64,000 nt of DNA from Dryococelus australis. Taxonomy: Eukaryota; Arthropoda; Insecta; Phasmatodea; Phasmatidae. The translations under genes were made by a program, and so were the position numbers. The notes under the pieces were generated by a model. That model did not search any database and was not told the origin of the DNA. It saw nothing but the letters and a program-made list of their open reading frames with translations. This document shows, piece after piece, positions 3,303 through 59,830 of this stretch (its first letter is position 1; each line of letters begins with the position of its first letter). The DNA is taken from NCBI GenBank assembly GCA_029891345.1, contig CM057005.1, positions 60,963,760-61,027,759 of the forward strand. The letters are read 5' to 3'.

Positions 3303-3312
3303 ACTATTACTA

Positions 3313-10123: not shown

Positions 10124-10889
10124 CACTGAGAGGAAATCGAACAAAATATTAGTTTGTATAGGGCCAAATATATATTTAGTTGCCCTAACAAAATATATTG
10201 TTGAGCAAACAAAATTTGAAACGCAACAAAATTACTTTTGTTCGTCTAACAAAAATATATGTTTGAATAAACAAAATCTCTGTGTTGGGCCAAAACAATT
10301 AGACTGTTAACTAAATATTTTGTTGAATCAACTGCATGTATTTGTTTGGCCACTCATTTGACTGCCTTCGTTCGAAAATACGGCTCGAGTGTTTTTTTTT
10401 TTTGTATTTTTGTGACAATTAGGATAGTAACAGCGTTTGTTAGAGCGTATATTGATGTTTATCAATCGTATAAACACATTAATAAAACAATGCAATAATC
10501 AACTGACAAGTAAAGCTAACAAATTTGAAATATTTGTTTGCACACTTTGTCCAATATTTTCAGTATATCTATATAAAAGCTTTTCGATGACATCAGTTGT
10601 CTCAATAGCTGTGATTACTAAGGCGTAGTGCACGGAAACAAGTGCTCCAAGGTTGAAACTCCGTCGAACTTGTAATATTTATTTTATATCGGCCCGGACT
10701 GTTTAATTGTACGTGTAATCAAACAAATGTTTAGTTGCACCAAACAAATCTTACAGTTTGGAGCAACCAAATGAGAAGAAAAAAATAATTTGGTTTCAGC
10801 AAAAAAAAATATTTCTTTGCCCCTATACAACAAATAATTTTATTGCACCGAACAAGTCTTGTTTGATTCAACAAAACATTTTCTCAGTG
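10124..10889 (+). mobile_element. CACTGAG-ended TIR element, copy 1 (766 bp)
   Basis: The ends are CACTGAGAGGAAATCGAAC and TTTTCTCAGTG, each flanked by TA, a plausible 2 bp target duplication. Long subterminal regions on both sides are built from short motifs such as ACAAAATAT, TTTGTTTG and TATAGGGCCAA / GCCCCTATAC in inverted orientation. The same element occurs reversed at 48767-49471 and, more diverged and disrupted, at 39957-41124. There is no transposase frame. The interior carries a tRNA-like sequence (10599-10672) shared with the 48767 copy. Confidence 0.75.
10599..10672 (+). pseudogene. tRNA-like sequence inside the CACTGAG element, copy 1
   Basis: TAGCTGTGATTACTAAGGC resembles a tRNA D-arm/A-box (TAGCTCAGTGGTTA-type), and GGTTGAAACTCC, starting 45 bases after the T of TAGCT, resembles a B box; a canonical tRNA has about 44. 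The reversed copy at 48955-49025 has TAACTGAGATTACTAGGGC and GGTCGAATTT at the same spacing. The clover-leaf stems are poor, so a functional tRNA is unlikely. Confidence 0.45.
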
Positions 10890-30069: not shown

Positions 30070-30698
30070 CACTGTAAAAAAAAAAAGGGAAAATTAGCTG
30101 ACAAGTGTAAGGTAATATTGGCAAAACTTGTGGGGGAAACATAGTTTCCCTTACAGGAAAGATAAAATTACCGCACTCTGGAGTAAAATTCACGTACATG
30201 GTAGTGGAAAAGCCCAAACATGGATGGGATGATTACCTTACGACGCGTGCATCTCTTCAGAAAAAAAGAAAAGAAAAGTGGGGGGTGGGGTGGAAGAAGC
30301 AATCATTTAAAACGCTGATATTTACTGTTGCTGACACGTCGTTGTCGTGTAATGGATAGCACATCGGCCTGTCGTGATAGAGGGCCATGGTTCGCTCTCA
30401 CACACCAGCAAATGCCGAGGATTTTAGCGTTGAAGTTTCATTACTATTCATCAGAGGATACAGACACTAAAATAATTAACGGTACTTATACTCCGGGATA
30501 ATTTTAATATAATTTTATTACACATTATAGTTATGTGATTCCCCCCCCCCCTTTTTTTGTCGAGCACTTTTCCCGTACAATTAGGGAATAGTACTTCACT
30601 TGTTATATAAATTTACTCTACATTTAAGAGGAAATTACATGTAGAGGTAATTAGCTTCCCTTACATGTAGGGGAATTTCACCTCACTATTTTACAGTG
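30070..30698 (+). mobile_element. CACTGTAAAA-ended TIR element with a tRNA-Asp-like core
   Basis: The ends CACTGTAAAAAAAAAAAGGG and ATTTTACAGTG are inverted repeats, and TA lies on both outer sides as a possible target duplication. Subterminal parts repeat short motifs such as GGTAATATTGG / GGTAATTAG, TTCCCTTACA and GTAAAATTCAC in both orientations. The 629 bp element has no transposase frame. A tRNA-like sequence sits at 30338-30409. The ends resemble those of the CACTGAG family, so the two may use related transposases; that is inference. Confidence 0.7.
30338..30409 (+). pseudogene. tRNA-Asp(GTC)-like sequence inside a TIR element
   Basis: TCGTGTAATGGATAGC stands at the A-box position, and GGTTCGCTCTC begins exactly 44 bases later, the canonical spacing. 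The loop expected to hold the anticodon reads CTGTCGT, giving U33-GUC-G37 as in tRNA-Asp. Five of seven acceptor positions can pair (GTCGTTG with CACCAGC, one of them G-T), while the T stem is weak. It is probably a degenerate tRNA-derived module, not a working gene. Confidence 0.55.
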
Positions 30699-31571
30699 TA
30701 GCTCTTGTAAAAATATGCGCACCCTCAGTCAAGGCGTTTACTCGATGGTCTAGGTCAGTGCTGTTGATATTTTATCACTGCCGCCGTGGTCATCCCAGCT
30801 ACCTTCATTCGGGGTCTCGCGTGTGCAACGCAGGAAAGAGAATATTCACTTGACTCACAGGTGTATTATCCATTCCCGGTTTGTTCGGATGTTTCGAAAC
30901 GAACCTTTGAAAAATCATCCTTTTAGTAGGCCTATCATTCAGCCTGTTTTTTTTTTTAAATAACTTGTATACTACAATTATATAGCACTGTGATTGACCT
31001 TCAAGTATTGTATTCTCGAATAAATGAAACTTTAACTTAGTATCTTCTATAAATAGTAATACTTATTTCGTATTAAATAGGAATTAAAATCAGTGAGAGC
31101 AGCGACGTGTTGCCAACGGCTATTAAGATATAGTTCACAGTTAAAATGTTGTATTGACCTAGTTTGTTGGCACGCTATTTGTAAATTAAACGTTGCCTCT
31201 TGATATATTTAAATTGTAGCACTGAAAGAAACATATTTCATTGTTACAGTTAAAAAAAATCAGCGCAAATTACAGTGCCATGGAGATATTTTTTCACCCG
31301 AGGAAGAAACTTGAACAGGCGGGGCTGAGCTTCTCTCTCTCATTTTCTTTCTCTCTTTATTTGTCTTGGGAAGTTTCACACCGCTAGTAATAGCAGGAAA
31401 TTACACATGTTTTAAATTTTAGCATAAATCATACTTATTATAGCAAAAAATAATGGATTTTAAATGTGTAATTTACAATTTTTTATGGCCGTCAAAGATA
31501 ATGGACAGGCATAACGACGGCCTGGTAGAGCTGGTCAGTCAGGAAAACAGAAAGGTGAAATCGAGGACACG
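30699..31571. other. Unique AT-rich DNA
   Basis: A CT-rich run (TCTCTCTCTCATTTTC) lies near 31330. No repeat ends. An 86-codon frame at 31453-31713 runs into the inverted-repeat arm and has no recognised motif. Confidence 0.45.
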
Positions 31572-32276
31572 TGGTCAGACTATACAGAATGTTGCAAAAT
31601 TGCATGTCAATACGCCGGGGAAACATTCCTCACATTTGGAGGATGGGAAAAAATGTTTTGAGGACATAGGTCCGCAAACGCTTCGTTTCTTTACTACAGC
31701 TCGTAATACTTAACGTACAGTGTATGACCCGTAGGATGGATCATGTTACTGTGGAATGCCATAGCAGCCGTAATCGGCAGCCCCACACCAGCCCCCGAGG
31801 AGTCCTAATTTGAATCAACTAGACTATTATTTGTGGGCACATCTAAAGGCACTTGTGTATGCAACCACTGTTGACGTTGTGGGCAACCTCCGTAATCGTA
31901 TTGTGGCAGGTGTCCACTGTCTATGCAACGACAGGTTGTTGCATGTGTTCATGCTTATGGATGGCATTTTGAACGTTTCCCTTAGTGCCGACGATAAGCT
32001 GTCACACATGTGTAACTAATTCCTGTGCAGTTCCTACTGGTCTAGGTGTAGTGTGAGGGGTCGTGTATCATGCAAACGAACGCTGCGATGGCATTCCACA
32101 GTAACATGATCCAGCCCGCGGGAAATACACTGTACGTTGTGTATTACGGGCTGTAGTATAGAAACGAAGCATTTGCGGACCTATGTTCATGTAACATTTT
32201 TCTATCCTCCAGATGCTAGGAATGTTTCACCAAAATATTGGCATGCAATATTACACCATTCTCTATAAACGCTGAG
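31572..32276. mobile_element. Long inverted repeat flanking a transposase remnant
   Basis: The arms 31572-31769 and 32081-32276 are inverted copies about 197 bp long with moderate divergence. Shared blocks are GATCATGTTACTGTGGAATG, CATAGGTCCGCAAA(C/T)GCTT, AACGTACAGTGTAT and TTGCATG(T/C)CAAT. The 311 bp between them encode a transposase fragment. This looks like an internally deleted DNA transposon with long terminal repeats, or an inverted duplication of one end. Confidence 0.65.
31801..32019 (+). pseudogene. mariner/IS630-type transposase C-terminal fragment
   Basis: The frame begins SPNLNQLDYYLWAHLKAL and continues VYATTVDVVGNLRNRIVAG before a stop at 32019. Family knowledge: SPDLxPLDFxLWGHLK followed by VYATPV and an LRxRI segment is a recurring C-terminal pattern in mariner-like transposases of arthropods, with the last catalytic acid in or near it. 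The usual SPD is SPN here. No N-terminal or central catalytic part is present. Only about 70 codons remain, enclosed by the inverted arms. Confidence 0.7.
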
Positions 32277-33003
32277 ACAACAAGTTTGAAGGTCGCCATT
32301 GCTGCAAGACTCCTGCGGACGTCAGTTGCCGAGGCGTGGTCTCGGGGGACGATCGACTCCGCATACGCGTGACCTTCAATGCGGAGTGGACCTGATCGAA
32401 TCGGTTCCAAGTGTATTTGAAAAGTACCTGAGAAGCTTCGGAGCTATTGCCAGCTCTAGTGGCGGAGAGTAAGATGGCGTGTGAAACGAGGAAGGACTAG
32501 TGATGCGTCTCTTAAAGCCTCTCCTAGCCCAAGGGAACCCACTACCTCCTTGTGGTACTGCCGGGTAACCTCTTCTAGAGATTAGCCAAAGTGGGAAAGT
32601 CCCGGGCGTGCCCTATGCCTCTGAGTTAAAAGGGGAATCCGTCACCCATGCTAAGGTTGAGTCATGGGCAGTTATAATGGCTGTGCATGGGGGCGGGATG
32701 GTCGACTCCTTGACACTGAGGAACAGTGTTCCTTAGGGAACACCTTGGGAAAAGGGGCGTGACCTTTTTGGAACGACGTCTGTTGATACTCTTGGTGTAA
32801 GGCAGTTGCCGTGTCAGGGAGGACCCGCGGACTTGTCTTTATAGGATGTAAAACCCTACATGAAAAGTACGTAGGAGCATGGGGTGACCTCATTTCCCAG
32901 CTGGATCCTCAGAGGTCAGGATGAGGAAGGACTCGTGCAGGCGGTGGTTGGAAGATCGCACCAGCGTGCTTTGGTCAAGACAAGCACAAAATACTCAAAC
33001 ATT
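32277..33003. other. GC-rich stretch of unknown origin
   Basis: Base composition is clearly richer in G and C than the flanks, with stretches such as GTGGTACTGCCGGGTAACC and GGACCCGCGGACTTG. Two similar segments, GAGGAAGGACTAGTG (about 32490) and GAGGAAGGACTCGTG (about 32925), lie about 430 bp apart. It could be the untranslated region of a non-LTR retrotransposon or an isolated CpG-rich segment. No reverse transcriptase motif is present. Confidence 0.35.
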
Positions 33004-33247
33004 GAGCAAAAACAACCGATCGTTCACCCCTACCAGTCCGTAAGGACTGTAAGGCGGTATTCAAAGCCGGGCGATAGAACTGGTAATGGACATTTATTCG
33101 CAATACGACCAATATTGCGGATACTGGTCAGCTTGGTGTGGTTGAGACCGGAGGGTCCCTGGTGTCCAGCGCGATTCTTACTGAGGTCGTTACTGGGCTC
33201 CTGGGTGGCCTGTGTAAGGAGGCTACATGAGGCGGGCCAATATCACT
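33004..33247. mobile_element. 244 bp insertion flanked by a 15 bp direct repeat
   Basis: AAATACTCAAACATT occurs at 32989-33003 and again at 33248-33262, perfectly conserved. A 15 bp target duplication around a short GC-rich insert suits target-primed retrotransposition of a SINE or a 5'-truncated LINE. There is no poly(A) tail at either end and no tRNA-like head, so the family is unknown. Confidence 0.55.
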
Positions 33248-33262
33248 AAATACTCAAACATT

Positions 33263-36200
33263 ATTAAATACTGTATCTCAGTTGCAGTGAAGGCTTCACG
33301 CTGGGGACTGAGCCGATAATAAACTCCTTGATGTTGTAGTTGTAGTATTTTAACAGTGTTAAGTCAGACAGCTATTTCTGATGTAGAGATCTTGAGTATA
33401 CACCTCTATCTAAGTGCATTTAAGTCACATCCCTTAGACATGACTCTAAGCAATTTGTATATTGTTATTGAAGCAATAAACGCAATATTTTTCACTTGAA
33501 CAACACTGTGTGTTAGTGATTCGTTATATTCTGAAACTAACTGACAGCCAAATCGGTTAAACGTAACAAATAGAAACGAGATTTTATACTTTGAATACTT
33601 ATTATAATACAATTAGATGTAATGGCGGAACGGTTACAAATCCGAAGTTGGCAGAAGTGGCGACTCGCGACGTGACATAACGTGTTGCTCAATGAAGCAT
33701 AATTTTCTCTTTTTGTGAAAAATTCTTAAAATTACCACGTCAAGTTTGTACACGTTGTGTTTTTTAATCTTATATAGGCGAGTTAGATGTTGTGACAGTT
33801 CTGTTTTTCCATGGCGGGACTAAATATACTGGAACGTGCGTTGTGACCACTGTGTGTAAAAAAAAAGTATTGATGCCTTTATGTTACGGTGTGCCAGCGA
33901 GTGTGTGTGAATGCAAATATTTGACGTGCGAAATTGATACGTTTTTATGACGAAATTAATTTTTGAAAGTCACGCCTATTTAATTACAACGACGTTGTGA
34001 CTTTGCCCTAGGTGTTTGAAACACTGTGTAACGTTCTTACGTTTAGGTGATTTGGATGTTAGTCACAATCACAACAAAATAATAAGCCCTGCCAGATAAA
34101 TTTAAACAAATAATGAAATAAAGCTGGAAAACAGTACTCACCAATGCATAAAAATATGATAGGAATAAAAGTTACGGGAGGATTATTTGTGTGCATGTTC
34201 ACCAATATATTTTAAGTTTGTCGCTGCTACAAACAAAAAATATAAGACACGAGTTGCGTACTTGAATTTACAGTGTTTTTTCGTTGGACTGGCTGTTCCT
34301 TCGTTTTAATATTTATTCCAACTGAGGCCGTTCTTTTAATGAACTAACCCAACACGTATCAATAACAAGAGGTTAACTGCTACAGCTCTTCCCCCCGCAG
34401 TTGTAACAGGGTTAAACACAGTCGCCTGCAAAATATTAACGTGTATTACGTGTAATGTGTTAAGTCGTGTATAACAAATATGTTAACAATGCAAAATAAT
34501 AAGCGTAAGAAACATTCTCAATACAAACGTTATTAAAAAGTCGCAAAGCTGTCATAAAATGGTATAGGCCTAAATTTTAAACATTCGTATGAAACGGTTT
34601 TTGAAATATGACAGAATTCTTTGAACAACTGAAAACGGTAAACAAATCATTTTACAGTTAAAACGTGGAAGTCACATGGCAATGTTTATGTTCACATGGA
34701 GCGGAAGGATACATAATCGGTAACCAAAAGTAGAACTTCAGCATGGCTTCAGAAAAGTGTGAAGTAACCGTAATTGGCGTACAGTTCTTTATCAAGACTA
34801 CACTACTTAGTCTTCATCTATATTTGTGCAGGTATGTATTTTAACCACTCTTTCAACAAACCGATGAAACTTGGCGTATTGAACAGACTGGAGACATTTT
34901 CAAGCATAATGATTGAATAATGGCTAATCTAAAATTATAACTGAGTTCTAGTTTAAATTTTACATAATACTATAGTAAATATGATATTTCTGTTCCTTTT
35001 TCATGTGGGTCGTACCAATACAATATATTAGAATCTGATGAAAAAATTACACCTCAAACTTTAACATTCACGTAGACAAATTTACTCTTTTTTTACTGGT
35101 ACTTGGATAAATGATAATGAATTTTAGAAACAATCGTTCCTTATGGCGGCATATTTTTCCTCCTATGCTCTTTAATTTTAAAACGTAACACTCACCAATG
35201 TGTAGGGAAGTTTAAGAAGTCAGTTATCTTTTCTTGCGTGTTTATTTCTATACATGGAAAAAAAAAAAAAAAACAAATATTCAGGTGGAATTAACGCATA
35301 TGCAATGGGCAGTCTTTACAGTAAGTTCTTTCGTTGCCTTTTCTTCTAAATTTATGAAAACTTAAAAATAGTTTTGTTACCCATGCCGACCAGATAATTC
35401 ACTACTCAATTATTTAACAAGCTAGGATTGAAACATTTATCCATTTATACTATAACGATGATCCGTGGAAGGCTAGTCTGTTAACAGTTAACATTAATTA
35501 CTGACTAATGTTCAATCTAATTGACAAAACAGAATGTAATGATAATTACAGTATATATATATGTAGTATGTTTTGTCAATTAGATTGAACATTAGTCAGT
35601 AAATATATATATATATATATATATGGCAGAAAACTCAAGCCTAATGCCCAAAGAACTGTTCACATAATATTTTACTCTGTATTTAAAACCAAACCGACAT
35701 CCATGTTAGGAAACATTGAGGTGTAGAGTAAATTTTGATGTTTAACTAACTAAACGCCAATGCATAGGACGAAAAAAGAAGTTAAGTGCACAGCTACGTC
35801 CATGTCATAAATAAATGTGTCGGATAGTGTTCGTTAAATATTTTGTGATAATTTTTTTTCAGCTTGCTGATATTGTTACCTATTATTTTTCTAACTGTAC
35901 CCACCTTATAGTTGCAGACAATTCAAGGTGGCTTACATAACAAAAAACTGAGGCTATTCCTAAACCTTAAAACGGCATATGTAACTACACCTCTTCTTTA
36001 ATTCTGAAAAAAAAAAGACCTCTGGCAGTATGATCTGAAATCACAGCCATGTATGCTGTGGAGATTGGTAGGCCTCTTCTACTTTTTTACTAATACCGCA
36101 GAAGGCAAGTCGCTTTTCCTCCAATACCTTGTATTTTTGTAATGACACCTCTGTTATGAAGTTTTCAAATATCTCGGGTTTCGTGAAGATGATTTCGAAT

Positions 36201-38854
36201 GAACTTAGAATTTCAATAATATCCTAAATAATTTCCTGTTTATAAAGACGTAATATATTCAGTTTTATGTGATTCGAAATTACAACCAAATTGGTCAAAT
36301 GCTATACCTAATACCTGCGATAGAATAATCTCTTCAAGGTCAACATTTATGGAGGAGTTGCTCTTAATTGCGATAGGTATGGATGGGGCAAACATACGTA
36401 TAAAGCCGTTATGAAATGTCTTCAGGCATTAACTATTTCCCGCAGTATTTCGTCCAAGTGTTAGATTTTCATTAACTGAAGTATTTAGACTGAGAAACGG
36501 TGATAATTTGGAAAACTTTTATAGTGAACTCAAAGTATATCTAATAGTTTGTAGCCATCTGAACATTTATTTTGTATCAAGAAGTGATTATGCAACGTAA
36601 AACTTCTGAAATGGGGATAGTGTTCACTATACATCGGGAATGTATATCTTTATTTTTAGTACAAGGTAAACATTTTACATTTTAATATCTGCACGCAATT
36701 GCGAAAATGCATTTCGCTGTCTAACAAACAACTCTCTTCAAAGCGCTCGCCATATCAGGCGTTGAGTGCATCTAAAAACTGATGGCAGCCCTCATTATTT
36801 TTTTTTTTCGTTTGTTTTTCAATATCCTCGCTCGCCCGACACAAAGAGCTCTTTCGTTTCGAGACCTTTCGCTGCTTTTAAAATCGCTGAGCTCAAAATG
36901 TACAGCACGCGCATTATTTTTACAAGAAGAGATGAACAATTATTTTGGACGACCCCATCTGCACAATATTTTCCAACGTAAAGGTTTAAGCTCAACTAAT
37001 TTACAAAAATTCTGTTTTTTGTATAAGTTTAAGACCTTTACCGTTCTGCTACAAATTTGAAATTAAGCCGAAAATTTGCGTAAAAATGGTAATATTCACT
37101 ATATTAAAAGATTTAAACTCATGAAAGGAAGAACTACTTGAAATAATTTTAATTTGATTGAAAATTTATGAAGAAAAATCTTACGCAAGAATTTGGAATA
37201 TGAAAGCCATTAATTTTATTATACATAAATATCAGTTTTCTGTATTTTGTTTTGCATTTTTGCCAACATTAATGAGGCAAAAATACTGGAACTTCAATAT
37301 TAGTAAATTAAATTTATGTAACATGTAGAGTATATTAATAACTAAAATTTTATAATAAGGCGAGCTGGAAAGAAGAGAAAGTTAAAATTAAAACGATCTC
37401 TTTAAATTAAATATGACACCAAAATACTTTCATCTCCCCCAACCCTAAAAAAAAAACTACAGCGAACAAAACTATCAAACTCACACTGTTCAAGTAGGCC
37501 TAACTAGAATTTCTAAAAAAAATATAGAAACATTCGTTTTCCTAATGAATGTGTTTCTATATGGTTTGTCAGAGAAAGATATATCATATTTTATTGTCAT
37601 TATCGAAAGTGCTATGAACCGAACAAGAACAACTGGACGAGTGGATTTCATCGGAAAAAAAGATAAAAAAAAAAAAAAAAAAACTCTCAACAACTCTCGC
37701 CAAAGCAGATTGTAATTGACGGCGTATTCGCATGATAAGTTTGTACGATCGGTAGTGACACCCGTGTACAGCAGAATACGTAGATAATCAGAGAAAAAAT
37801 ATTGCGTCCACCGCATTCTCTATGCGTCGGGATTACCCGACTCTGATCTGACGAGGATTATATTTGAAACGTAGCAAGTCAGTTCCCGTAACCTTCCCCC
37901 CCCCCCCCCCAAAAAGCGCTTATTATCCTGTGCTTTCCGTAGCGTAGACATACCCGCTACCTATCTGTAATATACGTTACCTCGTTTCTGCGATACTGTA
38001 TACCATATATTCGGGCTCTGTTAATTGGCATTTTTGCTTTATCCCGAAAACCATCCAATTAAAGTAGAATGGGCATGAAGGCAAAGGGAATCTGGCTGGG
38101 AAACGGAGAATGAAGTGCTAGACAGTGTACTTCTGAATCTATGTACTGTAGTAAGTCATTGGAATCATCATCTGTCGGCTGATCTTGCTCGGATGCTATT
38201 CGCATGCGTGTCTGCGGATGAGTGACAATTGTTTGAATTTTGCATATTATATATTTGTTTGCTGTGACATCAAATTGTAGTCTGGTACAAGACTGAAAAC
38301 GTTGAGAAATTGCTTTATTAAAAAAGAAATAAAATACAAAAATAACAGGAATTTAAAATGAATACCTCTTTTCGTACAAATATCAAAATTGAGCAAAATC
38401 AATACAGCTCAAAATTATTGTCCATGTCATCAGAATATCACGAGAATATTTTCCCGGTAATTTGGCCTGCTGTTCACCCGTATTTCAAATGTAACTTTTA
38501 AGATAACATTTGAAGTCAACACAGCCAAACGTTAAATCATTATAGCAGAAACATTTTAACTGAAATTCAGCTTCTTGTTAAAATAACTTTTTGGAACTTA
38601 TACGAATCAATATTTTAAGTTGATTGTCTGATATTTAATCACAAAAAAAAAAAAAAAAAAGAAACACGAAAGCAGATTATTTAATTATTTGGTATTTTCA
38701 TGAAGTGATTATTGATGGGGTGTCACGAAAATATGAAATTTCCTCAAAATTGATATTTAAAAATAGCTGTTGAACGATTTTTGAGCGAGTGAGACACATA
38801 CTCGATGAAGCGCAATGGTAAATGATGTCTGGTGTATCTCTTGCGATTCTACCT
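33263..38854. other. Long AT-rich unique stretch
   Basis: No gene is recognised. Items seen are a 33 bp perfect inverted repeat (35498-35602), a possible eroded family A end at 34665-34770 (GCGGAAGGATACATAAT), A-runs at about 35260-35275, 37667-37683 and 38642-38660, and a C-run near 37898-37911. Open frames reach about 108 codons (37490-37816, minus) but run through homopolymers. Confidence 0.45.
35498..35602. repeat. Perfect 33 bp inverted repeat, 39 bp loop
   Basis: The arm at 35498-35530 (TTACTGACTAATGTTCAATC onward) is exactly reverse-complementary to 35570-35602. The loop contains a short TA run. A TA run also follows the right arm. No target duplication is obvious. Confidence 0.95.
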
Positions 38855-39087
38855 CTATAGGCTTTCACGGTGAAGTGAGCACTTTGGAAAGCCCTCTCAT
38901 TTGGAATAATATTTGATTTTAGTCTTAGACACAAGCCTCCGAGCGCGGCTGATTATGTACACTGTGTTTTATTACTTGCTGTACATGGCAATATTTATTT
39001 CAAAAGGTGGTTAAAGTATAAGAAATAGCTAAAAGGAAAAAGTAACTAGGGCCTCAAAAGTGCTCACTCTATCGTGAACAGCCTATA
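38855..39087. mobile_element. Family A MITE, short form
   Basis: The ends CTATAGGCTTTCACGGTG and ATCGTGAACAGCCTATA are inverted repeats, with inner continuation AAGTGAGCACTTTGGAAAG against CTCAAAAGTGCTCACTCT. The interior GCCCTCTCATTTGGAATAAT and AATAGCTAAAAGGAAAAAG match the 28664 copy. Confidence 0.85.
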
Positions 39088-39956
39088 TGTGTCACGATAA
39101 ATGGACGGGTGCGCATGTGTTTTCGTTGAGAAGAGTACAACTATGACAATTTAAACGGTGACTCGAGCGTTTATTAGCAGTGTAACGATTTTTCTCTTTG
39201 CGAGTACAAATATATTACCCTGATAATCTTGGCTCTGGTGCGGCTATGCAAATTATGCTTGGGATACGTATGCTATTCTGGGTTGGAAGTAAACATACGA
39301 AGGAATTTTACAAACAAGTAGGCTTACTTCATTACTTGGTGACAAATACGCAGTAGAATATGCTTTCTTCTAAACGACTTAAATTGAGAGTCACGCGTTT
39401 TAAGTTACATCGATCACAAATTTCAAAAAGGTAAATTTAAACATAAATTTCAGTTTCCTATTGTTTTGATGCCTTCATTAAACAACTTGCAGTCGTATAC
39501 CGAGGTAGGATCTCCCGAAAGCTACGACATTTCAAGAAAAAGAACAATATATATGTGAATAATTTTGATGTCTTCTTAAGGACCCTACGTCGATCGCTTT
39601 ACAGTATAAATCTTATGAATGTCGAAGTGATACCAGGGTGTTGGAATATCACATTATTTTAGAAAGTCCGGATATAGAATCATTAGAGCCCATTATCATA
39701 ATTCATATATCCTTGTATTGTATTTCAGGCACATCATTTCAATAAGACAGATTCTAGCTATGCTGAGGGATACGGAATAGGAATATCTAAATGGCGTAAT
39801 GTATTAAAAAACCATTACTTATTAACTTAAAGTGTGTGCTAGTTTTGTAGATAAATACACTCAGTAGCTATTAGTAGTTTTGGAGAAAAATGCGTGTCTA
39901 AACAGGTTACAGGTATTTCGCATTGATTTTAGGCAGGTGCTTTAATTCTATGCTCA
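39088..39956. other. Unique AT-rich DNA
   Basis: Nothing recognised on either strand. Confidence 0.5.
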
Positions 39957-41124
39957 CCCTGAGAAAAAGGTTTTTTTTTAAAAATGAAACAAAGGTTTTT
40001 TTTTTTCGGAGAAAATTGAATTGGTTTGGAAAGGGCTTATTAACGTTCTCCAGTGTTATGCCTGAAGGCTTATTAAGGGACGGCTTATAAACTAACTTAT
40101 GTGACCTAACATAAACTAAGGCTAGTGCCTTACCTGAGATTCGAGCCCCGAACAACCCCCCAACCCCCGGCCCAGCTTCCGCGGACTTGCAGTGCACCAA
40201 CCGATTGCACCATGGGATGTCATATTTTGGAGCAAAAAATATTTATTTGTATAGGGGCGATTGGATATTTTGTTGCTGAAACAGAATTATTTGTATATTG
40301 TCTTATTTTGTTTATCTAAACGTGTAAGATTTGTTTAGTGAAACTAAATATTTGCATGGCTGCATGAATATTAGAGTTTCGGAAATGGTTAAAAAAAAAA
40401 AAAGAGAGAGAGAAAGAAAGAAAGACCGAAATTCTAACAAGAAACGTTTACGAACGAGCGCTATGTATTTAAACCGTCGTCAAGTTATGACTATCACGAA
40501 AGTAGATATGTTATTCTTTTTCGTATATTATCTAATGTATGCCAATGAAATGAAATATTTTTGAAATTTATAGTTTTTACTGTTTGAGTTTTAACTGAAA
40601 TTGCTTCAATTTGATTGTCTGTGCCATTATAAAGCATCAACAAACGCACTATAAAACACTTTGGTTATCCTAATTGTAACATAAATTATAAACAAGGTCT
40701 AGAGCTGCACATTCCAAAGAAGTCAATCAAATGGTCTGATTATCCTTCGGCAAAACAAATAAATGCTGGAGCTTGACCAAACTGATTTTACTGTTGTCAC
40801 AGCTAACCAAATACTTATTCACTCCAAACGAAATGTACATTTGACTATACCATGTTAATTATAATGTTTGCAGCATCCCAACCAATCATTTGGACGTACT
40901 TGTAAAACGGCTGTGTGTACCAAAACATGTAGATGATACCGGAACAACCAAATATGTATTTGTTCGGCTCAACAGATTATTTTTAAATGGTTTATTTGGT
41001 TCAAAGTAACACGTGCAGATATTTGGAGAGCCGATTAGTTGAGCGAACAAAATATTGCTTAGCGTAAACAAACTCTTGTCAAATAAATTAGTTTGGTGTC
41101 TGAAACAAAATATCTCTCTCGGTG
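39957..41124 (-). mobile_element. CACTGAG-type TIR element, diverged copy with nested SINE
   Basis: The left end CCCTGAGAAAAAGGTTTT resembles CATTGAGAAAAAGGTTTT of the 48767 copy. Motifs such as TTTGTATAGGGGCGATTGG, ATATTTTGTTGCTGAAAC and GTAAGATTTGTTTAGTGAAA follow, and the right end is CAAAATATCTCTCTCGGTG. It is the most diverged of the three copies. Extra sequence at about 39985-40225 with a tRNA-like head looks like a SINE inserted near the left end. A purine-rich microsatellite lies at 40390-40427. Confidence 0.5.
39985..40225 (-). mobile_element. Possible tRNA-headed SINE nested in a TIR element
   Basis: On the minus strand a head near 40210 reads GGTGCAATCGGTTGGTGCAC and later GGGGCTCGAATCTCAGG, A- and B-box-like with an enlarged spacing due to a G-rich insert. 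About 150 bases of body follow and end in A-rich runs near 39990-40010. The flanking CACTGAG sequence is interrupted at this point. The family differs from the 59562 SINE. Confidence 0.4.
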
Positions 41125-43496
41125 CTGGAAAGTTCTCTAGTTTCCATCATTATCAGTTTTTTACGTGCCCTAAGTTGATAATAATATACGTAATAGTTTC
41201 CACAACATTCAGTGCTTTCGTGATTTCATTTTATACTCATCCACGATGTAGTAGATTTAACTTAACACTAAGCAATGTTTTTTTTCTTAAATATATTCAC
41301 TGCGATTAACTTTCTTTAATTTGATACTAAAGTACGATCTGTTTTCACAGTATTGAGTGATCTATCGGGGGTAAAGTGGTGCGTGAAACTGCGATAAACC
41401 CGTATTCGCATTAAACTGAGCGCGATAACGAAACAACTGTTTATTTTATTTGCGCTGGCACATATACGCATATACAGTTACAAGTTTGTGACGTTACGTA
41501 TCGACCTTCGTTAACGTAAAGATTATCTGTCACTTTCATTCCGATGCCTTAAAATACGTGGAGACAGTGCAACCATACAAGCACCTTAAAAACGTTACGG
41601 AAAAAACGTGGAAGGAATATGCAATAGTTAAGGTATATTTATTTATCTCGTGCCTCCCGTTTGTAGAATACTGCAAGAGAATTATTTCCCAATCGTGGTT
41701 TGTGGTGTCAGCTGGTGCGAGAGAACTTTTGTTAAGACTAATAGCAGAGATAAAAACTGAGATCTTCTAAGTCACGAACTTTTCCCCCGCCGTGTTTCAA
41801 GTTCCGCGAAGGTGGCATCTGGTTTTTATTTTTATTCGGTTCAACAGTACATTTGTCTGTCGACCGCCTGCGCCTTTTCGAGAAACGAAAAATTGCTGCA
41901 ACTTTGGGTTGTTCGAGAGCGCGAAGAAATAAAAGGAAGTGATATTTCCCACGAGTACCTCTCAGGATTTGTTCTGAGAACTTAGTATTTTTATTTGTCA
42001 GCACGGAAGTCACTCAAGAAAGTTTTTTTTTTCCCCCAGCATCCTATGTATAGTAGAGAAGAGACAACCTGCGAGATGCATGTGTATGAACGGTACTAGT
42101 AACCATTTGTGTATCATTTTTTGTTGCGTTAAAGTCCCGCGATCGGAGTGAAAACATTAACATAAATAAATATTAGTTTACGGGTATTTGGGAGCGAATA
42201 CAGACTAACCAATAGACAATTCTAAACACAGATTTTCCGTAATATTTGTGAGCAAATATTTGGCAAAGGCGATACATTCCTCTTTCCAAAGGCACCGCGT
42301 ATTTGTACATGTTTCTCACAGGCTCTAGATACGATTCGCTTGTGGAACGTACAGGGGCGAATTGTTCTTTATACAAGTGTATACTCAGAAGTATTCTAAA
42401 ATATTGCCTGTAGCTGAAGTATGCCAATAGCGTTTCGGTTTACGTGAGTTAACGATAATGGAAAATGCTAAAATAAAACACGTTCCCAGGTTTTGTATGT
42501 TGCGCTGAGGAGTGCCCATTCAGTTCCCTCAAATTCACAGATTTTTTATTTTCAATGCTTATTATATTTCATTTCTTTGCTCATTCCCTCTAAAATACTT
42601 CTGTTCTTTGATATTTTCAACAACTATCCTAATCTGGAGGACGTGCATATTTAGTCGATTGAACCGCATTTCAAAGGTGTTTAGAGTATGTTGATATTGC
42701 ACTGATGCAAATAAAAGTGGTTTGTTAAGAAATAAGAATAAATTGAAAATGTTCTTAACTGTTTACAGAATGAAAGAAACAACAGACTATTTATTTGACT
42801 AGCCATTGTAATTGACAAATACTTAGTTTACCGAAACGGCAGAATCAACTTCCTGTAAAAGTTGCTAATGAACCTCTTTAAGTTTATTCACAGAACACAA
42901 GCTACACTTTTTGCAGTGGCAGAATCTCTCTTTAGTTTTCAAACATATGAAGTTTAGATTAATACATGAGCGTGGCGTATGCTAACAATAATAATTACTA
43001 CAATTATTGTCACGAGTATTCCTACTAGAGATGAAGAATTAAAAACATGTCGGCTATGGTCGCATTTTGCGGTATGTTATACCTATAATTTTGCTCGTAA
43101 AGCATTATGACGACTTCATAAAAGAAAATGATCGATTCTTAGTACAAACGTCTTGCTTCGCGTAGTTATTTAGCTTAACCTCGTTTCTTTCGGCACGAAA
43201 ATGAAATCGTTATCTTTCAAATACACGTTACTTTTTTTAAAAATTTAATATTTTTCATAAAATGTTACTCACATTTTAATATAATTTTAAAATTGCTAAT
43301 GAATTGGTAATGTTTTAAAAATCGCAAAAAATGAATTTGCGTATTTTTCTGCTTTTATATTTTAAAATTTTACAAAGTAGCAGTTTAGGACCCAGTGCTC
43401 CGATTTGTAAACTAGAAGTGGACTTTTATCGTTTTCTCTTTAAATGTATAAACCATTATTTGAAACCCACTAATTAGTTAAAGTGTAATAATCGTT
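41125..43496. other. Unique AT-rich DNA
   Basis: Open frames of up to about 91 codons show no recognised domain. No repeat ends, tandem repeats or RNA genes are seen. Confidence 0.5.
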
Positions 43497-44556
43497 CACT
43501 TTAAATTCGAATCAGTGGGAAATCACTGATTCACAGAGAAATTCAACTACTATAATCAATGAAAATGGCTCCACTTAGAATCAGTAGAAAACCACTAATT
43601 GTTTCAGTGAAAAATTTCACTGATTGAATTAGTGACGTGAAACGATTGCACTGAGTGAGTAGATCTCAGCTGATTGCAGGGGCGAATTAAATATTGCTTT
43701 ATTGAATGTAGACAAATAATTACATTAAATAAACGTATTTACAATAATTTAGTATTTATATTGTGCAATTTACCGTAATTTAAAAATGTAAAATAATTTA
43801 GTAGTTGGCTAGGATTGAACTCGGGTACCCTTCACCTATAGACCATTTGAGCTACCACTCCAAGTTGAAACTGGTAGAGGAAAATATATGTCTTATAGTA
43901 TCGCTACGAAATCGTGTAGTTTGAAATTCTTTGCTCATACTTTTCGTTTTTGGTTTGATTAGTACCGTTAGGATTGATAAAACGAATAGTACATATGAGT
44001 GTACGCTCTTCGCCGCATTAAATGCAGTTTAAACCTTCAAATAGAGTGCTCTGACGACTACATGCAAACCAAATTAAAGACGTAATCACGAAATGAAAGA
44101 CGTAAAAACGGAATGAAAGTCTGTGTGTTCATATTACCTCGTAAAATGGCGTTTTGAAAGACGAAACACATTTTATAAAGTATTTAGTATTTGTTTTATT
44201 AGTTTATTCGTTGTTATAGTACTTCACTTGATACACGTCGTTTAATGGCCATTTCTAAACGATGTTTGACGGCAATTTTTACACGCTGTTTCACTGATAC
44301 ATCAGTCAAAAATAGTTAGACGGAGCAAGTTGCTCAGATGTTTCACTGGTCAACCAGTCAAAAAATAAACCACTGAGAAAACAGTGGAAAAAATGACTGA
44401 CGGATCAGTGGGAAATGTCACTGAATCAATCAGTGAAGGAAATATGGCATTTTTTCACTGGCTCATCAGTTAAATTCACTGAAGTGACTGTTGTATTAGT
44501 CAGATACGTTTGACTGATTGCAACAGTGTTATTCTCACTGATTCAGATTTAGAGTG
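43497..44556. mobile_element. ATCAGTG-rich TIR element (1,060 bp)
   Basis: The left end CACTTTAAATTCGAATCAGTGG and the right end CTGATTCAGATTTAGAGTG form an inverted repeat of about 25 bp. Both subterminal regions carry many copies of the heptamer ATCAGTG or CACTGAT and close variants (for example at 43511, 43524, 43572, 43583, 44400, 44428, 44515, 44537). Such motif clusters are typical binding sites for a transposase. No coding frame. A degraded tRNA-like sequence lies at 43797-43868. Confidence 0.7.
43797..43868 (-). pseudogene. Degraded tRNA-like sequence in the ATCAGTG element
   Basis: On the minus strand GGTAGCTCAAATGG is a good A box and GAGTTCAATCCTAGCC a good B box with T arm. The distance between them is about 12 bases shorter than in a tRNA, so the anticodon arm appears damaged. 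No A-rich SINE tail follows; AT-rich DNA leads on to the ATCAGTG motifs. Confidence 0.45.
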
Positions 44557-44674
44557 TTATCTGTTCAAATATATTTCCTACACGCCTTTGTAAGTCGAAT
44601 CCATTGAATGAACAGTGAGGGCAAACTTACACGTTCGAAGTGATCAACGCATGTATTATGTTGTACATTATAAT

Positions 44675-44928
44675 GGGGTGCGGTGGTGTAGTGGTTAGGC
44701 TACTTATATTCCACCTAGGCAGGCCAGGCGGGGTCGCTCCTGGATTTTCGCATGTGGCAATCGTGCCGGACGATGGTCGGCGGGTTTTCTCGCGTATCTC
44801 CCGTTTCCCCGCCCCCTTGGATTTCAGCTCTGTTACATATTCACCTCTTTTCACCCTCGTCGGGTCTCAAAACCTCGATGTTACGAGCCGCCCAAATCTC
44901 TCCACTTCACTTACACTTTACATTATAT
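44675..44928 (+). mobile_element. tRNA-headed SINE
   Basis: The head GGGGTGCGGTGGTGTAGTGG is followed by a body with GGATTTTCGCATGTGGCAA, GTGCCGGACGATGGTCGG, CGGGTTTTCTCGCGTATC, CACCCTCGTCGGGTCTC and CCGCCCAAATCTCTCCACTT, the same order as in the 59562-59830 copy on the other strand. The B box is eroded. Immediately downstream lies a family A MITE. Confidence 0.8.
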
Positions 44929-44932
44929 TGTA

Positions 44933-45271
44933 TGTTGTTCACGGGTAATTGCCTACACTGAGTGGCATGCACCCTGTAAAGTTGGCAACGACGGGACGGA
45001 GCGAAATTAGTCCCACGTTTTAACGTCGAATTAAAGTGCTAAGTAAACATTAACGAATACTGATTTTTTTTTGTTTTACTTTTTGTGTTTTTTTTATTTA
45101 TCCAAGCGTACGAATAAACAAGTGTGTAAATTATACACTTTTTTATTAAGTTCACAGCTGAGCTTGACCGATACATGAGTAAAGTGATCACGCATATGTA
45201 AATTCTAATTCTACATATTGCGGAAGAATACAAAACACGCATTGTACTCCGTTTGTCGTGAACAATCTATA
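44933..45271 (+). mobile_element. Family A MITE, long form, diverged
   Basis: The left end GTTCACGGGTAATTGCC and the right end TGTCGTGAACAATCTATA are eroded family A ends. The interior keeps AACGACGGGACGGAGCGAAA, TTTAACGTCGAATTAAAGTG, TTGACCGATACATGAGTAAA and TTGCGGAAGAATACAAAAC. It is about 80 bp shorter than the other long copies. Confidence 0.65.
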
Positions 45272-45548
45272 CTCGTTTAGTTTTGTAGGACATTACGTTC
45301 CCTACTTGATGATAACTACACTTAATAATAGTCTTCTGTGTTTATCATTGCATGTTCGTGACAATAATACATATAAAAGCTTCTTAACTGAAATGCGCAT
45401 GCAAAATCACAGGGTCCAAATTATTTTATCTACTGCGAAGCGAATTTAGTTAAAGATGTGGACGTAACAAAAATTTCGTGAACGACGGGGCGCTTTGTAA
45501 GTAATGCAATTTTTTTTTTCTTTTATGAATAATAATCTATACTAATAT

Positions 45549-46631
45549 CCCAAGTAGCAAAATATAGTTGGCCCACAAGTGCAGATCTGATTGCGAACAA
45601 GCAGCCCACATGCTGCATCCACAGGCGTTCAAGAAGCGGAATGCACTCGCAGATTCATATGTCACACATGATGAATGATGGCTGTGGTATGATGTGTTTA
45701 CGCGTGGGCCACATACGGATATTTAACTGTCAGCAGATTTCTGGCAATCCAAGAGCTGCCCATAAGTCTACCACAAGCGGGCCACTTAATATTTTACAAT
45801 TAGTAAATTTCTTTGGATAAATCTGGAATTGAACTCACAAATCTTTCGTCTACAACCATGTATTCATTCAACTACTCTACCATGTATTAATATACGGCCT
45901 TTTAAGTAAATCTGGATACTTATTTCACATACATAATACATTATTAGCTTTGCTATACAGACAATGTTAGCATCACGAGTCAACACTGGGATTTATATGT
46001 TTTGTTTAAAAGATTAGTATTTTAGTTTCGGACTACTTTCAGGTAGAATCTAAAATGCAAAATAATGAATTTTTTTGCGTGTTATGTATTGCAGGTTTCT
46101 GGTATAAAAACTATTTTTACTATTACTAGCAATGCCACGTGATAATTTTACTTCATATATCCATGAAATAAAAAAAATCAATTGAATACGCATATGCTGT
46201 TTGCTACTGCACAACGACATATAGTCGGTATGCCATAAGTGGAACATAAGCTTGCTGATCATGTTTCCTCAGTAATAAGGAGCAGTTGGTATTCCACAAA
46301 AGGCTGTAAGTATGCTGCTATTATGTCCCCAGCAGTGAACAACAGTTGGCATGCCGTAAATGGCCCATAAACATGCGGCTAATATTTTTCAAACAGTGAG
46401 TAGCAGTTAGCATTTCCTTTATCAACTTCTTGTGGGGCGTCTGTTGAAATCTAACAATCGTCGTGAGAGCATTGGTGCACATTACGAATATCTGTAAAAT
46501 AGGTACTGTCACTTTTGTTTATATGACCTGATTGTTAACCATATAAGAAATGCTAACAGTCATAAATGCAAACGTTGTCACCACTGGCAACAGTCGGCCA
46601 ACTGTTAACTTCTTGTTGCTTGCTACTTGGG
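45549..46631. mobile_element. CCCAAGTAGC-ended TIR element with a tRNA-like core
   Basis: The left end CCCAAGTAGCAA and the right end TTGCTTGCTACTTGGG are inverted repeats, with AT on both outer sides. The right part has three imperfect 60 bp repeats with (T/C)GGTATGCCATAAGTGG-like cores (about 46211-46395). The left part repeats GTGGGCC / GGCCCAC motifs. A tRNA-like sequence lies between them at 45815-45886. There is no transposase frame. It is inserted in the Helitron at its TA-rich start. Confidence 0.75.
45815..45886 (-). pseudogene. tRNA-Tyr(GTA)-like sequence inside a TIR element
   Basis: On the minus strand GGTAGAGTAGTTGAATGA stands at the D-arm position and GTGAGTTCAATTCC at the T arm. 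Position 8 (45879) and position 54 (45833) are exactly 46 bases apart, as in a standard tRNA. The anticodon loop position reads TTGTAGA, that is U33-GUA-G37, as in tRNA-Tyr. Acceptor and T stems pair poorly, so function as a tRNA is unlikely. No SINE tail follows. Confidence 0.55.
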
Positions 46632-46674
46632 ATTATAGAGATAATGTAAGATATGTAACGGCTAATCTAGGGAA

Positions 46675-47010
46675 CTACAGGGCCGATTCTTATCATTGTT
46701 TCACTTTTTGAAAGATACATTATTCCAGGTGGATATAGGCTATGATTAATTTTAAAAAATCCTTGATAAATTTCAATATTTGTAAAACAAGTCGGAGAAA
46801 TAAAGAGCTACTTGGCTGGTTCTAAGCATGCCCTATCAAAACTACAGGGTATATTCTTATAATGATTTTACTATTAGAGATCTACATTCTTCCACATAGA
46901 CATAGACTCTGTGTAATTAAAAAAATATCCTTGAGAAATTTCAAAATTTGTAAACCAAGTCTGAGAAAAATGAGCTACTTGGCTACTTTCTAAGCATGCT
47001 CTACCAAAAC
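46675..47010 (+). repeat. 167 bp direct duplication within the Helitron
   Basis: Two diverged units begin CTACAGGG at 46675 and 46842. Both contain TAGGCTAT or TAGACTCTG-like centres, AATCCTTGA(T/G)AAATTTCAA, GAGCTACTTGGCT and TTCTAAGCATGC. Divergence is substantial, so the duplication is old. Confidence 0.75.
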
Positions 47011-47046
47011 CATGAAAGATAAATTGAAACAATTTTACAAGAAAAT

Positions 47047-47354
47047 GTCGCAAGTTGTCGCAGGTAGTCGCAAGTAGTCACATGTGGTCGCAAGTTGTCG
47101 CAAGTAGTCACATGTGGTCGCAAGTTGTCGCAAGTAGTCGCAGGTAGTCGCAGGTTGTCGCAAATAGTCGCAGGTTGTCGCAAGTAGTCGCAGGTTGTCG
47201 GAAGTAGTCGCAGGTTGTCGTAAGTAGTCGCAGGTAGTCGCAAGTGTGTCGCAAGTAGTGGCAAGTAGTCGCAGGTAGTCGCAGGTTGTCGCAAGTAGTC
47301 GTAGGTTGTCGCAAGTAGTCGCGGGTAGTCGCGGGTAGTCACGCGTAGTCACAT
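47047..47354 (+). repeat. 10 bp minisatellite (TCGCAAGTAG)n
   Basis: About 30 units of 10 bases follow the pattern TCGCA(A/G)GT(A/T)G. Variants with TCACATGTGG occur near the left end and with TCGCGGGTAG near the right. It ends just before the Helitron 3' end. Minus-strand frames through it give repeated Thr-Cys-Asp-Tyr-Leu-type peptides that are artefacts of the repeat. Confidence 0.95.
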
Positions 47355-47418
47355 AGGTATATAAATATGTCTTTCAATAACTCCATAAAACCTGAGCGAA
47401 GCGATGACTTACTGCTAG

Positions 47419-47824
47419 TTTATAATAAATAGTCATTCACATGGAAAAAATGACATTAAAAATAGTTATTTGAAGGATCATTTACAGCATTTTCTTCGAA
47501 TAATGACATTCGTAAACATGCTTATAGAAAATTATATTTCATATCTAACTAAGTTACTCCTAAACAATAAATATTATGTCTTTAAAAATTGCACGTGTTC
47601 AACATAATTTAGCGATCAAGTGTTGCTATTAAGAACGTAGTACAACTATCTGGAAAAGTGACAATTTTATCAACTGGGATATGTTGAATTCCTTCAATTG
47701 TCATTGTACTAGAATGATCTGTAAGATCAGGGGAATATTTAACTCTTAGTAGATTAGACAACTGCAAAGGGTTGCAGATATTTATGAACGGCAAGTTCTA
47801 AATAAATTTGAACGTGGGATAGGG
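47419..47824. other. Unique AT-rich DNA
   Basis: No repeat or recognisable frame. Confidence 0.5.
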
Positions 47825-47980
47825 TAGGGAAGAAGTTTGGGTGGTGATTAACGCCTGAGTGTTGAGAACCAATGAATGCGAAAAGAGGGCGAGGATGGCG
47901 CAGTGCCGGAATGCAAGAGCGGGGGAAGCTGGAGAACACCAAGAAAACCCGTGCCGACCTGCATCGTCCAGCACGCATGG
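47825..47980 (-). mobile_element. tRNA-headed SINE, fragment without head
   Basis: On the minus strand the body segments GTGCTGGACGATGCAGGTCGG, CGGGTTTTCTTGGTGTTC, CATTGGTTCTCAACACTC and a CACCCAAACTTCTTCCC tail match the SINE order. The tRNA head is missing. Confidence 0.6.
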
Positions 47981-48628
47981 GAAAGATATGTAAACATAAG
48001 TGTAACTGAAATTTTTCAATAACTTAGTAATTTCATAATTTCTGTATGAGTGAAGACATATTTCCATACCATACACGCGACAATCCTTTTGACCAGCTAA
48101 GAGAAAAAGATCAACGGTAATGACGGAATGTGTATTTTCTCTGAACTGCCTCGGCCACAACAGACTATTTTATTTGTCACAAAAACCGCCCTTCATCATT
48201 ATTCATGCGTATTACACTCTGTAGGAACAATATGCAAGTTCAGTATTGTTAACAAAGGTATAAATGTTGATATAATTCGTTTAGTGATTATTTGTCACAG
48301 AAGGGGAGTGGAAAAGTTTCCTCTGCTAGGAGCGCCAAATATCGGAAATCGCCCGTGGGTAAGAGTTCTTGTAAACTACCCAGAAACCGTACGCAGAGAC
48401 ACAAATAGCATACGATTCCATAGCTTACGCCAGAAACTTAAGCTCAGAAGGAAACGCCTAAGCGTAGGTTGGAGCGGCGAGAGGTAAATGGACTCGCAGG
48501 ATTAAGGGATTTCGGAGAGAGAAATTACACGGCGAGATACCTCCCAATTTTATCTATCTCCTTTATCTTCCTCTAAATCCAGCCACAGCGATGGTAACAT
48601 TTTAAATTATAAAAGCACTTATATCTTC
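47981..48628. other. Unique DNA
   Basis: Frames of up to about 120 codons (47798-48160 minus, 48128-48487 plus) are present. Neither has a recognised domain and the first overlaps the SINE fragment. I do not call a gene. Confidence 0.4.
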
Positions 48629-48766
48629 GGGCGCCGCGGTGGCTGTGCGGTTAGACTGCTCGCCTCCCACCAAGACGAACCAGGCTCAATCCCCGGCCGG
48701 GTCACTCCAGAATTTTTGCAAGTGGAAATTTGTGCCGGACTATGCCGCTGGTCGCTTGACCACTTT
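48629..48766 (+). mobile_element. tRNA-headed SINE, 3' truncated by insertion
   Basis: The head GGGCGCCGCGGTGGCTGTGC and CAGGCTCAATCCCCGGCC, with an intact-looking B box, lead into GGGTCACTCCAGAATTTTTG and GTGCCGGACTATGCCGCTGG. The body stops at the left end of the CACTGAG element at 48767, which appears to have inserted here; the SINE remainder is not evident beyond 49471. Confidence 0.75.
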
Positions 48767-49471
48767 CATTGAGAAAAAGGTTTTGTTTGGTGCAACAAAA
48801 TTATTTGTTTGTATAGGGGCAATGAAATATTTTGTTGCCGAAACCAAATTATTTTGTTGTTCTCATTTGGTTGAACCAAACTGTAAGAATTGGTTGGTGA
48901 AACTAAAGATTTGCTTGGCTACACGTACATTAAACTGTTTGGTCCGATATAGAAAAATCTTTCAAATTCGACCCTAGGTCACTTGATTCCGAGCGCTAAG
49001 CCCTAGTAATCTCAGTTAATGTGAAAACTAATAAAGCCTGAAAGCTTTTAGATAGACATACTGCAAATATTGGGCAACGTGTGCAAACAAATATTTCAAG
49101 TTCGACAGCTTTACGTGTCAGTTTATTGTTGCATTGTTTTATTCATGTATTTATACGCTTGTTAAGCATCAATATATGCACTAACAAACACGGTTAGTAT
49201 CCTAACTGTCACAAAAAACACAAACAAACTCTCGAGCTGTATTTTCGAACGAAGACAGAGCTGACTTAACAGAATATTTAGTTGGCAGTCTAATTTTTTT
49301 TTGCCCAACACAGAGATTTTGTTCATTCAAATATATATTTTGTTGTTAGATGAACAAGAGTAATTTTGTTGCTTTTCAAATTTTGTTTGCCCAATAATGC
49401 ATTTTGTTAGGGCAACTAAATATATCTTTGGCCCTATACAAACAAATATTTTGTTCGATTTTCTCTCAGTG
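48767..49471 (-). mobile_element. CACTGAG-ended TIR element, copy 2 (705 bp)
   Basis: The ends are CATTGAGAAAAAGGTTTTG and GATTTTCTCTCAGTG. Read in reverse it matches the 10124-10889 element almost throughout, including TTGTATAGGGCCAA, GCATATATTGATG(C/T)TTA, ACTGACA(C/A)GTAAAGCT and the tRNA-like centre. The two copies differ by many substitutions and small gaps, so both are old. Confidence 0.75.
48955..49025 (-). pseudogene. tRNA-like sequence in the CACTGAG element, copy 2
   Basis: On the minus strand TAACTGAGATTACTAGGGC fits an A box / D arm and GGGTCGAATTTG a weak B box 45 bases later. The anticodon loop position reads CTCGGAA, a possible U33-CGG (Pro-like) loop. The homologous place in copy 1 (10599-10672) has the same two boxes, so the module belongs to the element. 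Confidence 0.45.
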
Positions 49472-57107: not shown

Positions 57108-57137
57108 CTGAGCACAATGAAATTATATATATATATA

Positions 57138-58763: not shown

Positions 58764-58883
58764 TATATACAGAATGTCAACGAATAAGTTTTACAAACTA
58801 ATAGAAGTGTTACATGAAAGAAAATTGAACATATTTTACTAAAACACCCATGTCCAGAAACGCCTTATTATACTAAAACACGG

Positions 58884-59561: not shown

Positions 59562-59830
59562 TAGTGATAATGAGAAGTGATTGATTGAAGAGATTTGGAC
59601 GGCTCTTAATGTCGAGGTCTGGAGAACCGATGAGGGTGATTGAGGAGAGTATGGAGCAGCGCTGGAGTGAAAGGACGGGAGAAACGGGACATGCCAGAGA
59701 AAACCCGCCGACCAACGGCACCGTCCGGCACGATTCCCACATGCGAAAATCCGGAGTGACCCGGCCGGGTATTGAACCCGGGTCGCCTTGGTGGGTGGTA
59801 GCAGGCTAACCGCTTAGACACCGTGGCCCC
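59562..59830 (-). mobile_element. tRNA-headed SINE, best-preserved copy
   Basis: On the minus strand the head starts GGGGCCACGGTGTCTAAGCG at 59830, followed by GGTTAGCCTGCTACCACC and the B-box region CCCGGGTTCAATACCCGG. The body runs GGGTCACTCCGGATTTTCGC, GTGCCGGACGGTGCCGTTGG, CGGGTTTTCTCTGGCATG and CCTCATCGGTTCTCCAGACC, and ends CCAAATCTCTTCAATCAATC. The 270 bp are diverged from copies at 44675, 48629, 7174 and 47825. This copy defines the family in the window. Confidence 0.85.

Follow-up and report, generated by a model that had tools for sequence, protein, structure and literature searches.

Short interspersed elements (SINEs) derived from tRNAs carry a type 2 RNA polymerase III (Pol III) promoter, with its A and B boxes, and a degraded cloverleaf. 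An internal piece of a tRNA gene is normally the hallmark of that class of mobile element and not of DNA transposons. The nearest known case that we found is MER6/MER6A of mammals, a Tc1/mariner miniature inverted-repeat transposable element (MITE) that spread with a SINE piece inside it; where the source describes MER6, that piece runs from the SINE body to the tail, ‘excluding the tRNA-related head’ (PMC6887750). For DINE-1 of Drosophila, an abundant non-autonomous DNA element with inverted ends, the account of its classification reasoned from the absence of Pol III sites and of tRNA similarity that it is a MITE and no SINE (PMC2374699). Here we analyse a stretch of 64,000 nucleotides (nt) from Dryococelus australis (contig CM057005.1 of assembly GCA_029891345.1, positions 60,963,760 to 61,027,759; hereafter, the window), in which four families of DNA transposons with terminal inverted repeats (TIRs), designated A to D, each carry one internal tRNA-like module. 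Our comparison of genomic copies supports the view that several DNA-transposon families captured tRNA-derived DNA before spreading.

The families share with tRNA-derived SINEs the A and B boxes of tRNA origin and the degraded cloverleaf, but differ in having TIRs, 2-base-pair (bp) target duplications (in A and B) and an interior module with no SINE body or tail seen beside it. Like MER6, they are DNA transposons with an internal piece recalling a SINE, but what they hold, in four families and a probable fifth, is a tRNA-like module without a SINE body. They resemble DINE-1 in abundance, non-autonomy and inverted ends; because they carry tRNA similarity, the rule of thumb that separates SINEs from MITEs in the DINE-1 argument (PMC2374699) fails for four families, and probably five, in this one genome. 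A full-text search of open-access literature with narrow phrases, most papers being judged by their listing, brought up no case of a DNA transposon carrying such a module. The elements and modules of the window are as follows.

10124..10889, + strand: family B element, first copy; consensus TIR CACTGAGAGAAA.., 2-bp target duplication; recognized by inverted arms, copies and flanks.
10600..10672, + strand: tRNA-derived module of B, first copy; 61/73 identical to the consensus module, with the consensus T-run downstream.
30070..30698, + strand: family A element; TIR CACTGTAAAAAA.., TA 2-bp target duplication; recognized by inverted arms, copies, consensus and flanks.
30338..30409, + strand: tRNA-derived module of A; 64/72 identical to the consensus module, closest to tRNA-Arg.
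43497..44556, - strand (that of the module): family D element; consensus TIR CACTCTAAAT..GAATCAGTG..; recognized by inverted arms and copies.
43803..43864, - strand: tRNA-derived module of D, short of 11 bases in this copy; 54/75 identical to the consensus module, closest to tRNA-Ala(TGC).
45549..46631, - strand (that of the module): family C element; TIR CCCAAGTAGCAA..; recognized by inverted arms, copies and consensus.
45811..45887, - strand: tRNA-derived module of C; 66/77 identical to the consensus module, closest to a tRNA-Cys(GCA) of the genome.
48767..49471, - strand: family B element, second window copy; recognized by inverted arms.
48967..49024, - strand: module of the second B copy, partly decayed; 50/73 identical to the consensus module.

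An earlier note, made from the letters of the window, had proposed inverted-repeat elements without coding capacity at these places. Inverted ends are indeed found there and the elements are repeated in the genome; of the window's open reading frames (ORFs) of at least 110 amino acids (aa), none falls within A, C, D or the first copy of B, and one (48639-48977) extends across the left edge of the second. A Pfam scan of 10 of the 17 window ORFs of at least 110 aa gave no match at 0.01. Searches of this genome, the only one covered (3.4 Gb, 646 contigs), listed at least 40 matches for A, 43 for B, 100 for C and 44 for D; first-look candidates numbered 3,632, 5,112, 1,806 and 7,606, respectively, which are not equal to counted copies. 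Consensus sequences were built from 21 (A), 30 (B), 30 (C) and 11 (D) copies, the window copy included, and for the centre of D also from 31; the sampled copies are those that match the window element best, which makes the sample a biased one. TIRs are present in all four families, the consensus starting with CACTGTAAAAAA in A, CACTGAGAGAAA in B, CCCAAGTAGCAA in C and CACTCTAAAT in D. Both ends could be located in 16 of the 21 A copies and 27 of the 30 B copies, and the flanking 2 bp are identical in 8/16 and 19/27 of them, compared with 3.7 and 7.7 for shuffled pairings; the commonest pair is TA, and TG, CA, TT, AA and CG pairs are also seen. For C, a 2-bp duplication was read by eye in four copies whose right flank is not the one that many C copies share. 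Families A to D are multi-copy, non-autonomous TIR DNA transposons of MITE-like form. With their CACTG-type ends and 2-bp, mostly TA duplications, A and B resemble CMC (CACTA/Mirage/Chapaev) MITEs; we know of no tRNA cargo in that group.

Two peculiarities of family C may be recorded here. Many of its copies share sequence beyond the right end, so that the right flank is common to them, and copies hold internal tandem subrepeats of about 70 bp, in varying number and on one side of the module (for example, L050 and L059).

The tRNA-likeness of the modules was assessed with three profile hidden Markov models (HMMs): one from 19 human tRNA genes (each of them a tRNA according to ARAGORN), one from 15 Escherichia coli tRNAs and one from 29 distinct tRNAs out of 40 fetched from the genome itself, whose isotypes are only Ala, Arg, Cys, Lys and Thr. 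Each profile gives a single match per A–D consensus at E ≤ 100, always at the module. The human profile scores 24.6 bits on A, 20.4 on C, 13.1 on B and 8.8 on D; the E. coli profile scores D 22.1, C 13.4, B 12.2 and A 6.0; and the own-genome profile scores D 23.3, A 15.9, C 10.0 and B 7.2. For the human and E. coli profiles, which the shuffle test for A–D covered, the observed score was reached by 0/250 dinucleotide-model shuffles per family. Each A–D consensus holds one tRNA-like module, beyond chance. The earlier note's observation of one internal tRNA-like sequence per family holds in all four; it had counted the element at 43497-44556 (D) as a weak case, and D turns out to be among the better ones at the consensus level.

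One alternative is that these AT-rich elements resemble A and B boxes merely by chance. A cruder pattern consisting of the A and B boxes alone is reached by 219, 203, 42 and 0 of 1,000 shuffles in A, B, C and D, respectively, which leaves that test unclear for A and B at about a fifth of shuffles, and the full tRNA profiles were used in its place. Stem pairing at chance level in B, C and D also fits such an explanation, as does the best tRNA alignment of B, whose score is reached by 2/300 shuffles and which makes B, taken alone, less certain. Against it stand the profile shuffles with their one match per consensus, a score of 42 bits in a further family, E (see below), and alignment scores of A, C, D and E beyond those of all shuffles. 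We regard chance likeness as highly improbable.

The modules are parts of the families that carry them. At least 85% of the module columns are filled, at the same place, in 21/21 A, 30/30 B, 29/30 C and 9/11 D aligned copies, and the module is also present in all 9 aligned copies of E. Because it is found so consistently in the aligned copies of A to D, its presence in the progenitors of these four families, before they spread, is supported by the alignments, in line with what the earlier note had read from the two CACTGAG copies. The note had also named an observation that would speak for the contrary, tRNA-like parts in only some copies and accompanied by SINE tails; we see neither a SINE body nor a tail beside the module. 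An origin of the tRNA-like stretch as a SINE inserted in individual copies, which has one such event in an A-type element (L005) in its favour, is therefore scarcely credible and was rejected on the shared position of the module in the family consensus. In L005, around the match at 220-275, the A-type element is broken up inside its module by a SINE-like insert that brings a tRNA-like head of its own, and part of this insert also matches L016:3290-3419.

Pairwise alignment suggests which tRNAs may have been taken up. The A module is nearest to tRNA-Arg (score 41, compared with a maximum of 31 in 300 shuffles), the C module to the genome's own tRNA-Cys(GCA) (47 compared with 30), the D module to tRNA-Ala(TGC) (41 compared with 29) and the E module to tRNA-Arg (52 compared with 32). 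The modules score 12-25 against one another, except for C and E, which score 38 and whose left ends are also alike; these two may share one origin. On these comparisons, separate uptakes probably numbered at least three, but need not have been five. The earlier note's proposal of different tRNA sources is supported by the nearest tRNAs of A, C, D and E, whereas B gives no clear source and C and E perhaps had a common one. Of the anticodons that it had read, GTA in C is also that of the consensus, but GTC in A (30371) is a minority variant of a consensus ATC. The anticodons do not identify the source tRNA.

Family E emerged from a scan for tRNA-like places in the window and 65 fetched loci, which at a threshold of 11 bits gave 38 matches for the human profile and 9 for that of E. 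coli. Eighteen of these places lie outside families A–D by position, and 17 were inspected, the other being a 21-base E. coli-profile match in L048. By body similarity or by eye, 11 of the 17 could be assigned to a single SINE type and 2 to a second; the remainder comprise the SINE-like insert in L005, two unexplained places and one place (L060/L165) in family E. Under the three profiles the E consensus, built from 9 copies (8 fetched and L165), reaches 42.3, 24.5 and 29.3 bits, where the highest null score is 7.1. Its left end, CCCAATAGCAACTT, is the match start in many copies; a possible right end mismatches at 3/14 bases, so that only the left end is established. E is probably a fifth family of DNA transposons with a tRNA module, and its module is the strongest of all.

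Among the individual loci, L165 from position 243 onward, into L060, is a copy of family E with a family C element inserted in it, flanked by TA on both sides. The two unexplained matches, L022:671-704 and L050:122-153, fit no SINE, nor any clear element with inverted repeats. The tRNA-like matches of L166 and L022 were considered as further TIR elements and set aside for want of a convincing TIR pair.

What can still be read in the modules is a pair of A and B boxes spaced as in a tRNA. With A-box starts supplied by us, the distance T8–T54 is 46 in all five families, compared with 46 in the genome's own tRNA-Arg and 45 in its tRNA-Ala and tRNA-Cys, and a free scan for the boxes places their starts 45 apart in A, B and D and 48 apart in C. 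B and C have imperfect A boxes. A run of at least four T residues lies 26-33 nt from the B-box start in A, B, D and E (read on L165 for E); a T-run in at least four of five families has P = 0.012 against each element's own background. Box spacing and T-run together give the anatomy of a putative type 2 Pol III unit. The modules of A and E each retain 14 of the 21 stem pairs and those of B, C and D each 9, where the three own tRNAs shown have all 21; these pair counts are reached by 7 (A), 5 (E) and 420-550 (B, C and D) of 1,000 shuffles. Because pairing is at chance in B, C and D and Rfam reported no tRNA in the copies tested, the modules are not working tRNAs.

These features are consistent with an account to which we give an even chance: that these are non-autonomous TIR transposons whose progenitors took up host tRNA DNA, and that the module was kept as a Pol III/TFIIIC site. 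Each progenitor would have acquired a tRNA gene or pseudogene of the host and multiplied with this module inside it; the module would work in DNA and not as a tRNA. TFIIIC bound at the A and B boxes would set off transcription by Pol III, yielding a short RNA some 90-100 nt long that ends at the T-run. The centre of the element might thereby be kept open and accessible to the transposase, and copies keeping the boxes would be favoured while the cloverleaf decays. The earlier note had proposed capture of tRNA genes as promoter, boundary or replication cargo; uptake by several families is supported, whereas a role of that kind would have in its favour only the box spacing, the T-runs and a mutational peak that D shows clearly.

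The modules may instead be passengers, a tRNA gene, pseudogene or SINE head having landed by chance in each progenitor and hitch-hiked without function, which is a serious possibility somewhat short of even. tRNA-headed SINEs are common in the genome, SINE heads account for 13/17 of the inspected outside matches, a SINE-like insert exists in L005, cloverleaf pairing is lost in B, C and D, and the module evolves no slower than the rest of the element. Chance landings fit less well with four families and a probable fifth that have one central module each, with tRNA box spacing and, in 4/5, a nearby T-run. Furthermore, blastn of the module regions against the 17 contexts gave strong matches in three pairings only, A–L005, B–L014 and E–L060, in each of which the context itself includes DNA of the family, and none to a SINE body. 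Of the mechanisms considered, use of the modules as Pol III/TFIIIC sites would be the best, although unproved, with passengers nearly as likely.

Several observations weigh against captured modules kept as Pol III/TFIIIC sites, or limit the evidence for them. C departs from the expected anatomy, the free scan placing its boxes 48 apart, not 45, and its T-run lying 87 nt from the B-box start. At E ≤ 10, Rfam reported no tRNA in 20 A copies or 10 D copies. Neither ARAGORN nor Rfam at its gathering score reported a tRNA in the window. Run at relaxed settings on all loci, ARAGORN made low calls that were mostly scattered, two of them in the D copies L105 and L108; these two, in our reading, are the D modules. 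B is weak in pairwise alignment (its score of 30 lies below a null maximum of 38) and its source tRNA is ambiguous. Module scores against four single SINE heads of the genome are 11-29, which speaks for tRNAs, but the tRNA score is the best of about 50 references and the SINE score the best of four single copies, so that the comparison leans to tRNAs. The aligned copies of A–C and E are best matches to a module-holding query, which favours module-bearing copies. For D, a whole-genome count with two exact 14-base flank words, asked for spacings of 10-40 and 96-126 (41-95 being outside the count), found 18 places at 96-126 and 0 at 10-40; this speaks for the module as part of the family but reports module-length spacing, not tRNA-likeness, and three of the 18 viewed in part (one of them the sampled L089) had no profile match, two being much altered inside. 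Finally, the module is not specially conserved among copies, and in D it is lost fastest.

The pattern of changes among copies bears on whether the module is transcribed in the germ line. In D, private changes in the unit are raised 2.2-fold (11 copies) or 1.55-fold (31 copies), with the peak on the module, and the gap fraction is 0.063 versus 0.004 (11 copies) or 0.056 versus 0.013 (31 copies); with 11 copies, no other window of equal length changes faster than the unit (rank 1/319), which ranks 5/88 with 31 partial copies. The B unit is likewise the fastest-changing window of its length (1/221), but 159/683 windows are as high once base composition is allowed for, and private changes are not raised (0.0266 versus 0.0247). 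The A and C units are not exceptional in rate, at rank 46/185 and 114/442 windows. A mutational footprint common to all families was therefore rejected, being clear in D, debatable in B and absent in A and C. On the sense strand, all four families show an excess of A>G over T>C (1.38-1.97). It is significant in a count of copies (P = 0.006) but not in one of distinct events (P = 0.24), and an excess as high is found in 50/185 (A), 44/221 (B), 92/442 (C) and 40/319 (D) windows of the element itself. We treat the mutation signals as a lead towards germ-line transcription.

Such transcription could also leave its mark with no benefit to the element, germ-line Pol III activity on the module raising its mutation rate (transcription-associated mutagenesis). 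The ranks of the B and D units and the gap fractions of D would be expected on that account, but the unremarkable A and C units, and the loss of the B signal after base composition and in private changes, would not, and we consider it improbable. A broader proposal, which we hold to be doubtful, is that host tRNA genes became an internal Pol III/TFIIIC module in several lineages independently, aiding persistence or movement; the elements would then form a class of cut-and-paste parasites marked by Pol III, and germ-line transcription would have left a mutational footprint in some copies.

Should the modules indeed recruit TFIIIC, very many Pol III or TFIIIC sites could arise from DNA transposons, with effects on chromatin boundaries, on tRNA-gene annotation and on small-RNA pools. 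The high copy number makes the importance of the boxes for spread directly testable.

Elsewhere in the window, the inverted-repeat structures at 14701-16447, 3094-3514, 31661-32189 and 57137-58764 have no tRNA-profile match of at least 11 bits; the last has TA-flanked ends of the kind seen in Tc1-type elements. Copies of an abundant tRNA-headed SINE with a common body lie at 44724-44906, 48635-48753 and 59592-59823.

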